Assembly (NCBI GenBank): GCA_944325315.1
Contig: CALVAA010000001.1
Location: 1-64,000, forward strand
DNA length: 64,000 bases
Origin: Candidatus Gastranaerophilales bacterium
GTDB taxonomy: Bacteria; Cyanobacteriota; Vampirovibrionia; Gastranaerophilales; Gastranaerophilaceae
Direction of reading: 5' to 3'
The position numbers were made by a program, and so were the translations under genes. Numbering within the stretch: the stretch's first letter is position 1; every line of letters begins with the position of its first letter. The notes under the pieces are model-generated. The model saw nothing but the letters and a program-made list of their open reading frames with translations. It made no database searches and was not told the DNA's origin. This document shows, one piece after another, positions 7,507-23,571 of this stretch.

Positions 7507-8127
7507 TTATTTTTTATCGGTTTTTCTTTTGCTGTCTTTTTTGTCGTCCTTTTCTGTTTCTTCGTTATTATCAATATTAATCAAGTTGTCTTTTAAGATA
7601 TTGTCATTTGTTTTTTCTTCTTTTTCGGCATTACCTTCATATATTTTTTCGTTTACTTTTGTTTTTTTGCCTGATTTATCCAATTCATATTCGCTAATAA
7701 CCGTATTTCCTTCATCATTTAGAGAAAATTCAATCGCAGAATCTGTTGTTCCGTCTGCTCCGTTATCGTATGAATGACTTACCGTTTTTCCGTTTTCGTC
7801 TTGGTTATAGTATTCAATTTTATCAACTTTTCCGTCACGGTCCGAATCAACAAGCTGACTTAAAATTGTACCGTTTTCATCTTTAATCACAAAAAGCTCT
7901 TCTCTAAGCTTTAAATCTTCTTCACTATATAAACCATTGGAATCGGGCAGGTGCAGGCTTAAAAACTCATTAGCCTCATCGATTTTATTTTCCCAATCCG
8001 AATATGTGACATTGTTTTGTAATGCCTGTTGACTGAAAATGCTATTGTCTGTTGTCTGATTCAAAGCAGCGTTTGAAGGATTCGAAAGGGCTTGAAATAC
8101 TTCCTTTTGAATGTTGTTAATTTCCAT
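7507..8127 (-). CDS. Acidic protein with Ca-binding-like D-x-D-x-D-G repeat
   Basis: A 206-residue protein of unknown function. There is no clear signal peptide. The middle contains DSDRDGKVDKIEYY, which matches the spacing of EF-hand or dockerin-like calcium loops, followed by related segments (NQDENGKTVSHSYDN, NGADGTTDS, LNDEGNTVISEY) that resemble repeats of a beta-rich text-like YD module. The last 45 residues are a highly charged D/E/K tail. The start codon lies five bases after a 15-bp perfect hairpin that contains the ribosome site (see 8132-8166). Downstream on the same strand is the flavin reductase, about 125 bases away. Confidence 0.7.
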   Translation of the reverse strand: MEINNIQKEVFQALSNPSNAALNQTTDNSIFSQQALQNNVTYSDWENKIDEANEFLSLHLPDSNGLYSEEDLKLREELFVIKDENGTILSQLVDSDRDGKVDKIEYYNQDENGKTVSHSYDNGADGTTDSAIEFSLNDEGNTVISEYELDKSGKKTKVNEKIYEGNAEKEEKTNDNILKDNLINIDNNEETEKDDKKDSKRKTDKK

Positions 8128-8131
8128 TTTT

Positions 8132-8166
8132 ATATCCTTTATATATTTTATATATATAAAGGATAT
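8132..8166 (-). promoter_or_regulatory. 15-bp perfect hairpin covering the Shine-Dalgarno site
   Basis: Arms 8132-8146 and 8152-8166 are perfect inverted repeats with a 5-base loop. In the minus-strand RNA the 3' arm ends AAAGGAT-AT, the ribosome site for the gene starting at 8127, and pairs fully with the 5' arm. No T run follows on either strand at terminator distance, so sequestration of translation is more likely than termination. Confidence 0.6.
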
Positions 8167-8200
8167 TTATAATAAAAAATTGCCTAATTTTTTTAAAAAA

Positions 8201-9793
8201 TTATATTTCATAAAAAACAATAGTATCGCCTTCTTTGATTTCGCTTTTTCCATGGGGCACAAAAGATTCTGTTTCACGTTTGATTAATGCTATTAAGAAG
8301 TTTTGCGGAAAGGTAATTGTGTTTATTTTTTTATTTATCCATTCATGGTTTTTATCAATGTATGTTTCATTCAACTTGATATCATTTTGCGCTTTTACAA
8401 AAGTTGTGCCTATTAAAACCTCATCGTTTTCTTTTAATACGGTCTTTCCTTTTGGAACTATTTTTTTGCCGTCTCTTTCTATAAGCAAAATCAGGGCATT
8501 ATTGCTGAGCGAAATATCTTTTATGGGGCATCCTTTCCAAGGGTGGGAATCTTTAATTAATATTTTATTTAGTGCTATGGCTGATTCTTGTTGATAGTCG
8601 TTAAATGTTTTTCTGACATCTGAAAAACAATCTGTCATAGAATCTTTTTTTGCAACAATAGGAAGCATTGTTCCTTGAATTATTACCGATAAAAATGCGG
8701 TTACAAAAACTATATGAAATATATCATATTTTAATGAATTGCTTTCAGCTACAACCATTATTGCAAAAACTATTGAAGCTGCACCACGAAGACCTGCCCA
8801 GCTGATAAACCTTATTTGATTCCATTTTGCCTTAAAAGGAAGCATTATAGCGCAAACAGCAAGAGGTCGTGCAACAAATGACAAAAAAGCTGTTATTAAA
8901 ACGGCAGGTACGATTATTTCCGGAATTTTATTCGGGAATGACAAAAAACCTATTAAAAAGAATATTACTACTTGCGAAAGTGCCGTTATTCCGTCAAAAA
9001 AGTAAATAAGATTAATTTTATTTTTAATTGCACTGTTGCCCAGAATAATACCTGTTATATATACGCTTAAATAACCGTTTCCTCCTGTTGTATCCGCAAG
9101 CGAAAAAGACAAAAGTGCAATTGCCACCATAAATATTGTATCAGTACCTTCGGATAATAACTTTGTTTTTTTAAAGACATACATTGAAAGCCATGCTATT
9201 ATTACGCCAAAAAATATTCCAAAAACGATTTGCTTGAATAATACCAAACTTAAGCCTGCCAAATTACCGTTTTGTAACAATACAAGTCCTAAAACGGTTA
9301 ACATGTAAGCAAACGGGTCATTGCTGCCGCTTTCCATCTCAAGAAGAGGTGCTGTGTTATATTTTAGATTTAATCTTTTAGAACGCAGTATTGAAAAAAC
9401 AGAAGCCGCATCTGTCGAACTTATGATTGCTCCGATTAAAAAACTTTCATTAAAAGGAATTTTAAGCACAAAATAGCAAAATATTATACAAAAAGTAGCA
9501 GTTAAAATTGTGCCGAGAGAAGAAAGAAGTATGGCTTGAATTGTAACTTTATTATCCTGTGGTTTTTTGGTGCAAAAACCACCATAAAATATTATAAACA
9601 AAAGACCTATAGAGCATAATTTTGAAGTCAGGTCATAATCATCAAAAGAAATTTTAAAAATGCCGTCTGAGCCAAACAAAATTCCTAAAAACATAAAAAA
9701 TACCAAAGCAGGCATTCCAAGTTTGTTTGAAAATTTGTTCGTTATAATGCAAGAAAGTATTACAACTCCGCAAAATAGCATAATTATTGACAT
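8201..9793 (-). CDS. Potassium/proton antiporter, CPA1 NhaP2/CvrA type
   Basis: A 530-residue inner-membrane antiporter. Residues 1 to about 385 are a Na+/H+ exchanger domain with about 12 membrane segments and the conserved SSTDAASVFSIL and ESGSNDPFAYMLT motifs, the latter carrying the ion-binding ND pair. The C-terminus has two TrkA-C-like regulatory repeats (around 410-455 and 490-530, each ending in a G-x-x-x-x-x-GD or END-x-V motif), as in NhaP2/CvrA proteins that exchange K+ for H+. The start has AAGGAG upstream. Which cation it prefers cannot be told from sequence alone. Confidence 0.9.
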   Translation of the reverse strand: MSIIMLFCGVVILSCIITNKFSNKLGMPALVFFMFLGILFGSDGIFKISFDDYDLTSKLCSIGLLFIIFYGGFCTKKPQDNKVTIQAILLSSLGTILTATFCIIFCYFVLKIPFNESFLIGAIISSTDAASVFSILRSKRLNLKYNTAPLLEMESGSNDPFAYMLTVLGLVLLQNGNLAGLSLVLFKQIVFGIFFGVIIAWLSMYVFKKTKLLSEGTDTIFMVAIALLSFSLADTTGGNGYLSVYITGIILGNSAIKNKINLIYFFDGITALSQVVIFFLIGFLSFPNKIPEIIVPAVLITAFLSFVARPLAVCAIMLPFKAKWNQIRFISWAGLRGAASIVFAIMVVAESNSLKYDIFHIVFVTAFLSVIIQGTMLPIVAKKDSMTDCFSDVRKTFNDYQQESAIALNKILIKDSHPWKGCPIKDISLSNNALILLIERDGKKIVPKGKTVLKENDEVLIGTTFVKAQNDIKLNETYIDKNHEWINKKINTITFPQNFLIALIKRETESFVPHGKSEIKEGDTIVFYEI

Positions 9794-22440: not shown

Positions 22441-22641
22441 TTTGTAAACATTTATTAAAATCTTATAAAGAATTCTAAACATTCTAAAAATGCTGCCGTA
22501 ACTAAAAATAAAGACACACACCAAGGCAATAGTTAGAATGCATAATAAGGAATTATCTTTTTGTATATATAAAAATTTCAGCAAAAAAGGCAATTTTTTG
22601 TGCGAAATTTTTTTTATTAATATATACGAGGGGAGAAAATT

Positions 22642-23571
22642 ATGATTAACACAAACAATTTGTATGTTATTGAACTGAAAAACAATGTTCAAAAGGTAAA
22701 AAGCTTTATTAATGCTTTAATTCTTTTATCAGGACTTTTAAGTTTTGTTTATTTGGTATACTATGGCGGAGTTTTATCTGATGATATACTTTTAAGCTAT
22801 ACCAGACAATATTTTGAACCATTAGCTGCATTTTTAAACCCGGGTGTTTCGGGTATTGAAATGTATCTTTCAACATCGCTGTATTTATTTTTAGCTATTT
22901 TTCCTTTGGCGCTAAGTCAGTATTTTATTGACAAGTTTGAAGAAGCTTTGGTTAAAGCAAACAGACTAAAAGAGCAGGCAAAACAGATAAAAGAGGCAAA
23001 AAAAGCTTATGAAAACAGCCTTAAACAGTATGATATTATAAAGTGCTATTCAATATGCTTATCTGTTGATTATTCTTCAAAAAGCAATATTTCACTTCAG
23101 GCAAAAGAAGAATTGAATAAAAAAGTATACGATAAAATTAAAACTTTGTTGTTAAATTCTTCAAAAGATATAACAATAAAAGGAAAAGATGTTTTGATAA
23201 TAAGCTCTGAAAATTTTGACAATTACGATTGTGTATATTCAAATTTACTTCAGATTTTAGCAAAAGTTAAAACCGTAGTTGAATCCAAACACAATTTAAA
23301 ATTCATACCAAGCTTAACAACTGATGCGTATTATAATATGATTGAAGCTGAAAGCATTAAAAGAAAACATTTTGAAATTCAAAGCTTTAATTTTAAAAAC
23401 AGAGCACTTACAAGCGCATTGTTTACAAAAAAATACAAACATTTAAACCACAATAAATATGCAGGCATTCCAATCGGAGAATATGCATACTTTGACAACA
23501 ACAAAATGGGCACATATGAGTTAAATGTTGTATTTAAAAATCTTGGTCAAACTTTAGAAACAATTAAATAG
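22642..23571 (+). CDS. Unknown two-segment membrane protein with cytoplasmic domain
   Basis: A 309-residue protein I do not recognise. Two membrane segments lie at about residues 23-42 and 72-95. A coiled-coil stretch rich in A/K/E (about 97-130) leads to a C-terminal alpha/beta domain of about 175 residues (CYSICLSVDYSS, KDVLIISSENFDNYDCVYSNLLQILAKV, NLKFIPSLTTDAYY). That layout, with an anchor, a signalling-type coiled coil and a domain of cyclase-like strand order, hints at a signalling protein, but no catalytic motif is visible. It starts after GAGGGGAGAAAATT. About 200 bases upstream hold no gene; a CATTCTAA/TTAGAATG pair there may form a leader hairpin. Confidence 0.7.
   Translation: MINTNNLYVIELKNNVQKVKSFINALILLSGLLSFVYLVYYGGVLSDDILLSYTRQYFEPLAAFLNPGVSGIEMYLSTSLYLFLAIFPLALSQYFIDKFEEALVKANRLKEQAKQIKEAKKAYENSLKQYDIIKCYSICLSVDYSSKSNISLQAKEELNKKVYDKIKTLLLNSSKDITIKGKDVLIISSENFDNYDCVYSNLLQILAKVKTVVESKHNLKFIPSLTTDAYYNMIEAESIKRKHFEIQSFNFKNRALTSALFTKKYKHLNHNKYAGIPIGEYAYFDNNKMGTYELNVVFKNLGQTLETIK

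Follow-up and report, generated by a model that had tools for sequence, protein, structure and literature searches.

We describe here a perfect 15-bp hairpin over the ribosome-binding site of a gene of Candidatus Gastranaerophilales, and we consider it quite probable that the palindrome, taken as a whole, is explained as promoter DNA set directly against a ribosome site. The upstream half of the palindrome (8166-8152) would be the core of a promoter specific to the order, with a second box, GGCAATTTTTT, beginning 20 nt ahead of its ATCC. Polymerase would start at about 8151-8144, so that the gene's own mRNA would lack the 5' arm and have an open Shine-Dalgarno (SD) site. The full hairpin would form only in a longer RNA entering from the antiporter gene, which lies 73 nt upstream; in that RNA it should lower translation of the 206-aa protein. 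The hairpin lies in the window, by which we mean the whole stretch of DNA analysed (64,000 nt; positions 1 to 64,000 of contig CALVAA010000001.1, assembly GCA_944325315.1). The features of the window referred to below are as follows.

7507-8127, minus strand: 206-aa orphan protein with DxDxDG-type repeats, weakly EF-hand-like (ORF, domain search)
8132-8146, minus strand: 3' arm of the hairpin, carrying the SD (exact complement and folding)
8135-8140, minus strand: SD AAAGGA within the 3' arm, 7 nt before the ATG (sequence)
8144-8151, minus strand: predicted transcription start range, covering the loop and the first bases of the 3' arm (from spacing)
8146-8186, minus strand: promoter-like element, upstream box GGCAATTTTTT plus core ATATCCTTTATATATATAA (model R1, 36 bits, E 1.2e-8 in its own genome)
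8152-8166, minus strand: 5' arm of the hairpin, identical with the promoter-like core ATATCCTTTATATAT (exact complement and comparison of elements)
8179-8184, minus strand: upstream box GGCAAT, its first base 20 nt ahead of the ATCC whose A is 8164
8201-9793, minus strand: Na+/H+ exchanger with a TrkA_C domain, 73 nt upstream, possible source of read-through
22586-22626, plus strand: second promoter-like element, before the ORF 22642-23571 (model R1 and matrix)

The hairpin and the genes beside it

The hairpin before gene 7507-8127 was confirmed to be genuine and unusual. Its arms (8166-8152 and 8146-8132 on the minus strand) are exact complements of 15 nt each and pair at 15 of 15 positions around a loop of 5 nt, as a sequence-only reading of this DNA had reported. 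That reading also rightly placed the ribosome site in the inner strand (AAAGGA, 8140-8135, in the downstream arm) and described the stem as almost entirely A-U (just two of the 15 pairs are G-C), but the five bases that it counted between arm and ATG are four. RNA of the stretch 8200-8100 (minus strand) folds with -17.9 kcal/mol (z -4.84), equalled by none of 200 shuffles, and 14 of 20,000 dinucleotide-shuffled versions of the 73-nt spacer contained a perfect arm of at least 15 with a loop of 3-10. The 464 kb sampled from the same genome (the window plus 20 stretches) contain eight perfect hairpins whose arms are at least 15 long, as compared to zero in five replicates of an order-2 Markov null. 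The other seven mostly have G+C-richer, terminator-like cores, and one of them (L049:1202-1239) lies inside a coding frame. Among the 439 predicted starts of this sample, the SD in the window hairpin ranked first in pairing and its leader fifth in energy. No Rfam family matched at gathering score anywhere in the window.

The 206-aa protein had been labelled Ca-binding-like. A match to EF-hand_5 is indeed present (E 0.037), but at 13.9 bits it stays below the cut-off of 25.9, and the protein falls outside Pfam EF-hand membership. Close orthologues were not found: a weak relative is present in one of 27 other genomes of the genus and, in a wider search, in three of 238 other genomes of the family, and a contig scan of genomes for relatives returned nothing. 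Since the protein has no close orthologue, covariation of the arms cannot be judged at the window locus.

We found no terminator between the antiporter gene and gene 7507-8127. Antiporter homologues at six loci (51-79% identity) have different adjoining genes. The antiporter is 79% identical to a copy in a genome from another family of the order (G068, L010), and it is missing or less similar in the genus members searched. Its acquisition by horizontal transfer is possible, judging from these identities.

A promoter-like element in the 5' arm

The pattern ATCCTTT-N5-30-AAAGGAT-N3-9-ATG matched 35 places, spread over 28 of the 97 genomes searched, as compared to 3 places for the reversed pattern and 8 places (5 genomes) with the left word shuffled; an ORF of at least 40 aa followed the ATG at 20 of the 35. 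As a single class of window-like SD hairpins these matches were rejected, since they proved to be a mixture of promoter cores (the window, L064, L067 and L061), leaders of rhodanese-domain and rfbA-like genes, and chance. The word of the 5' arm, ATCCTTTATATAT, was found by itself at 72 places in 50 of the 97 genomes (reversed word, 15), which showed that the 5' arm also turns up where the 3' arm is missing. At 12 of 30 retrieved ATCCTTTATATAT loci, a box resembling GCAATT, TCAATT or GAAATT stands exactly 20 nt before ATCC, and in 11 of these 12 (window included) an ORF starts 26-62 nt after ATCC, one of them with TTG. In the boxed loci ATATCCTTTATATAT is preceded by GGCAATT or a variant, and the window copy of box and core reads AGGCAATTTTTTATTATAAATATCCTTTATATATATAAAAT. 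The element thus takes the form GCAATTT-N13-ATAYCTTTATATATAT, in which the spacing is fixed.

Twelve of the 30 retrieved loci, picked by eye as promoter-looking, and a thirteenth from the search with the first pattern (L064) were the seeds. A 15-site matrix gave 18 matches above 12 bits in the 464 kb of the same genome, and ten of these 18 are followed, 27-65 nt further along their own strand, by a predicted start codon; the reversed matrix gave one. Model R1 uses sequence only and was built from 22 sites, and 11 of its 12 strong matches were already in the model or were duplicates of it. We take as fair tests of the element the genus search, the search of order and outgroup, and a 9-site matrix. 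At E 0.1, R1 found 20-38 sites per genome in all 27 genomes of the genus. At E 0.01 it found 2-36 sites per genome in 79 of 79 genomes of Candidatus Gastranaerophilales, as compared to no site in 11 and one site in 4 of 15 outgroup genomes of the same class, which we preferred over a reversed-column alignment as the better control. The 9-site matrix left out the window site and all ATCC-selected seeds, although it is partly dependent in that seven of its nine sites were found using a matrix that included the window; it scores the window site at 31.9 bits, a value reached by none of 5000 shuffled spacers (maximum 20.9). Taken together, the 109 high-scoring sites from the genus give the consensus GCAATTtTtta, nine loosely conserved bases and ATACTTTATATATATgtaAGa, and the core has ATAC in 102, ATCC in 6 and ATTC in 1.

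Comparison thus yields two boxes at a fixed spacing that stand before genes in the matching orientation, recur many times in each genome and are spread over the order, which is the pattern of a regulon-type promoter. We infer that GCAATTT-N13-ATAYCTTTATATATAT is likely to be a promoter, although it could instead bind an activator, with transcription beginning at some other point. With the usual -35/-10 layout, transcription would begin 13-20 nt downstream of the first base of ATCC; for gene 7507-8127 this spacing corresponds to about 8151-8144 and puts the predicted 5' end within the hairpin.

Small RNAs and proteins downstream of the element

Type-1 small-RNA genes follow 33 of the 109 genus sites, a ribbon-helix-helix protein follows 20 and other proteins 19. 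The remaining 37 were not matched by a simple rule for ORFs or small RNAs, and some of them resemble type-1 or second-type small RNAs. Small RNAs that start just after the element and end in a terminator are as expected of a promoter. The sampled part of the window's own genome holds two copies of the type-1 small RNA.

L040:10743-10896, minus strand: type-1 small-RNA gene on an R1 promoter, with a terminator at its end
L056:5820-5973, plus strand: type-1 small-RNA gene on an R1 promoter, with a terminator at its end

Relatives are found at L128-L155. The layout is GTAAGACATAAATA, often CCUCCCCCC, then CACACTAACC...ACACGAGAATCAAG and a terminator, and no Rfam family matched it. A second, shorter type of small RNA (ACCACTATAAAACCCGAGGATATCAAG... 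and a terminator) was observed on the same promoter at L146, L311, L332, L333 and L347. LhrC and RsaE are described as C-rich small RNAs that block SD sites (PMC4132741). Compared with that description, the type-1 small RNA is similar in often carrying CCUCCCCCC, in being multicopy in its own genome and in ending with a terminator, but it shows no visible sequence relation to them and belongs to no Rfam family.

The element resembles promoters of alternative sigma factors in having two boxes a fixed distance apart, a start codon or a small RNA close behind it and many copies in each genome, but differs in that the outgroup genomes have no site (11 of 15) or a single one (4). We know of no alternative-sigma promoter with the boxes GCAATTT and ATAYCTTTAT. 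Sigma region 2 gave eight matches in the window's own genome, and in 20 sigma-gene stretches the element was never found directly before the sigma gene. An ECF-like sigma gene (L044:11096-11605) is followed by an LTXXQ-like gene and flanked by two R1 elements on the other strand (L044:10410-12656), and a similar ECF gene in G013 (L275) also adjoins a divergent R1 element. The gene L044:11096-11605 is a candidate for reading the element. Among the matches listed for the Melainabacteria, Gastranaerophilales and Vampirovibrionia literature, no title points to a promoter of this kind or to small RNAs driven by it.

Predicted consequences for translation

Folding at 37 °C left the SD unpaired in 89% of RNA starting at 8150 and in 0.1% of RNA starting at the antiporter stop codon. 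The SD is thus predicted to be open in the short RNA, which lacks the 5' arm, and closed in the long one. Opening the SD in the read-through RNA would cost about 12 kcal/mol at 37 °C. We infer, in addition, that read-through from the antiporter gene occurs.

Translation of the 206-aa protein had earlier been proposed to be gated by temperature or by ribosomes from the antiporter gene. What stands of this is the burial of the SD in RNA read through from that gene; the temperature and ribosome routes found no support. The calculated probability that the SD is unpaired rises from 0.001 at 37 °C to just 0.023 at 70 °C. In the ROSE and fourU RNA thermometers the SD is likewise paired within a leader hairpin, but the window differs from them in its perfect 15-bp stem, closed up to 70 °C in silico. 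An RNA thermometer was therefore rejected, the window also having no Rfam match. As for ribosomes, the antiporter stop codon (8201-8203) ends 34 nt before the stem at 8166 and the reach of a terminating ribosome is shorter than that, so such a ribosome should not touch the hairpin. Translational coupling to the upstream gene was rejected on this ground.

The promoter-in-hairpin arrangement has a parallel in phage T4, where gene e (also soc, 49 and I-TevI) has a late promoter in the 5' strand of the leader hairpin that buries its SD (PMC3014915). Set beside that description, the window is alike in holding the SD in the 3' arm and, on comparative evidence, a promoter sequence in the 5' arm; it is also predicted to be alike in that the long RNA folds and the promoter-started RNA lacks the 5' arm. 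It differs in being part of a bacterial chromosome, in its unrelated promoter with a second box, in a fold that is not kept at most sister promoters, and in read-through and timing that are predicted at most. The arrangement is not conserved in relatives. T4-like silencing of the read-through RNA is, on the folding model, a probable physical consequence of where the promoter is placed. On the promoter reading, an apparent RNA switch becomes an entry to an order-wide promoter and its regulon in little-studied gut bacteria. It also calls for caution, as SD hairpins spotted in raw sequence may be promoter DNA.

A broader proposal joins these parts, and we offer it as a speculation that is rather unlikely to hold in full. 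The order would have a transcription programme of its own at GCAATTT-N13-ATAYCTTTATATATAT, driving multicopy C-rich small RNAs of an SD-blocking-like kind, a ribbon-helix-helix regulator and proteins of the orphan kind. In part of this set, gene 7507-8127 included, the core would be kept complementary to the SD, so that one stretch of bases would both launch productive transcripts and shut off read-through RNA, as in T4 gene e but on a chromosome.

The hairpin at sister promoters

The sample of sister promoters consisted of 30 loci from the genus search, 80 other rows listed in it, all of them high scorers, and L108, with identical sites counted once. An ORF was assigned to 40 of the sister promoters, and three of these 40 have an SD helix of at least 9 bp with at least two G-C pairs, as compared to a mean of 1.06 when the 3' segments were re-dealt. 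Only in the window did the helix reach 12 bp, and the helix cases differ in sequence. G011 (L108) has a palindrome whose SD overlaps the promoter, so the helix measure does not apply. In G021 (L118) the SD context is that of the window hairpin, ATATATAAAGGATATAA, and the promoter core is a variant that lacks ATCC and therefore offers no window-type stem; its long RNA can fold another way. Of 44 ORF-assigned sites, 11 lie closely downstream of a co-directional gene. These include the window and G001 (L318), which both have an SD helix of at least 10, too few cases to decide on selection. Comparison thus appears to give little support to a T4-like role. That the hairpin is maintained by selection is unproven, and the counts lean to coincidence.

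Within the promoter explanation, and not exclusive of it, the hairpin may have no role at all: read-through RNA would be rare, and the match an accident of the ATCC-for-ATAC variant meeting an AAAGGAT SD in AT-rich DNA. The distribution of core variants in the genus (102 ATAC, 6 ATCC and 1 ATTC among 109) and the small excess of helices at sister promoters agree with this. However, a stem of 15 perfect pairs is a good deal to ascribe to accident, given the 14 in 20,000 shuffles, and similar cases exist in G001 (L064/L318) and G011 (L108), that of G001 likewise downstream of a co-directional gene. We give a hairpin without a role slightly less than even odds.

The sequence-only reading had itself named two circumstances that would speak against gating. 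Both are indicated: a transcript start inside the hairpin is predicted from the conserved promoter core in the 5' arm, and most other genes on the promoter have no such hairpin.

Other hairpins over ribosome sites

Leaders of rhodanese-domain genes of the order carry a TCCTTT...AAAGGA hairpin over the SD in 18 of 26 cases (L157-L165, L167, L168, L171-L173, L178, L060, L084 and L087), with inner pairs that vary. At one position of the stem the pair is G-C in 7, T-A in 4, C-G in 3, G-T in 2 and A-T in 1 (n=17). Pairing outside the anchors was 0.81, as compared to a re-dealt mean of 0.683, and was reached in none of 2000 re-deals, a comparison that is uncorrected for kinship. Leaders L166, L169 and L170 have another fold over SD and ATG, and five leaders are without such a pair. 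By comparison of sequences, the rhodanese leaders appear to conserve an SD hairpin and are a candidate for a new cis-regulatory RNA, whereas the window hairpin carries no such signal.

These leaders bear on a further explanation, namely that the window hairpin is a true translational switch in cis, in which the complete hairpin is part of the main mRNA and is unfolded by a helicase, some other protein or a small RNA to free the SD. SD-burying hairpins with covarying pairs are genuine in the order, as the 18 of 26 leaders illustrate, and the window hairpin is perfect, improbable by chance and the best burial of an SD among 439 starts. However, the promoter core accounts for the 5' arm, most genes on the promoter are without the hairpin, and the hairpin is closed up to 70 °C, which makes a cis switch improbable. 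Less probable still is a dimeric repressor binding the 35-bp palindrome as a DNA operator: an operator would be expected at such a place, where a perfect dyad covers a promoter core, and the start at L054:7241 in the same genome has the look of a DtxR-like operator, but no second copy of the dyad was found in the genome and across sites the direct element is conserved and the dyad is not. A repeated operator was ruled out, as the four other matching places in the genome match only partially. A promoter set against the ribosome site remains our preferred explanation.

Long hairpins over the SD were also observed before a gene that we take to be rfbA-like, at L066 (G010) and L070/L096 (G018), and the one in G010 reaches the ATG. 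At L054:7181-7246, the start of a gene for a 136-aa HTH protein, presumably DtxR/MntR-like, lies in nested palindromes (TTGTTAGG/CCTAACAA and CCTTAC/GTAAGG), which by their sequence are probably an operator.
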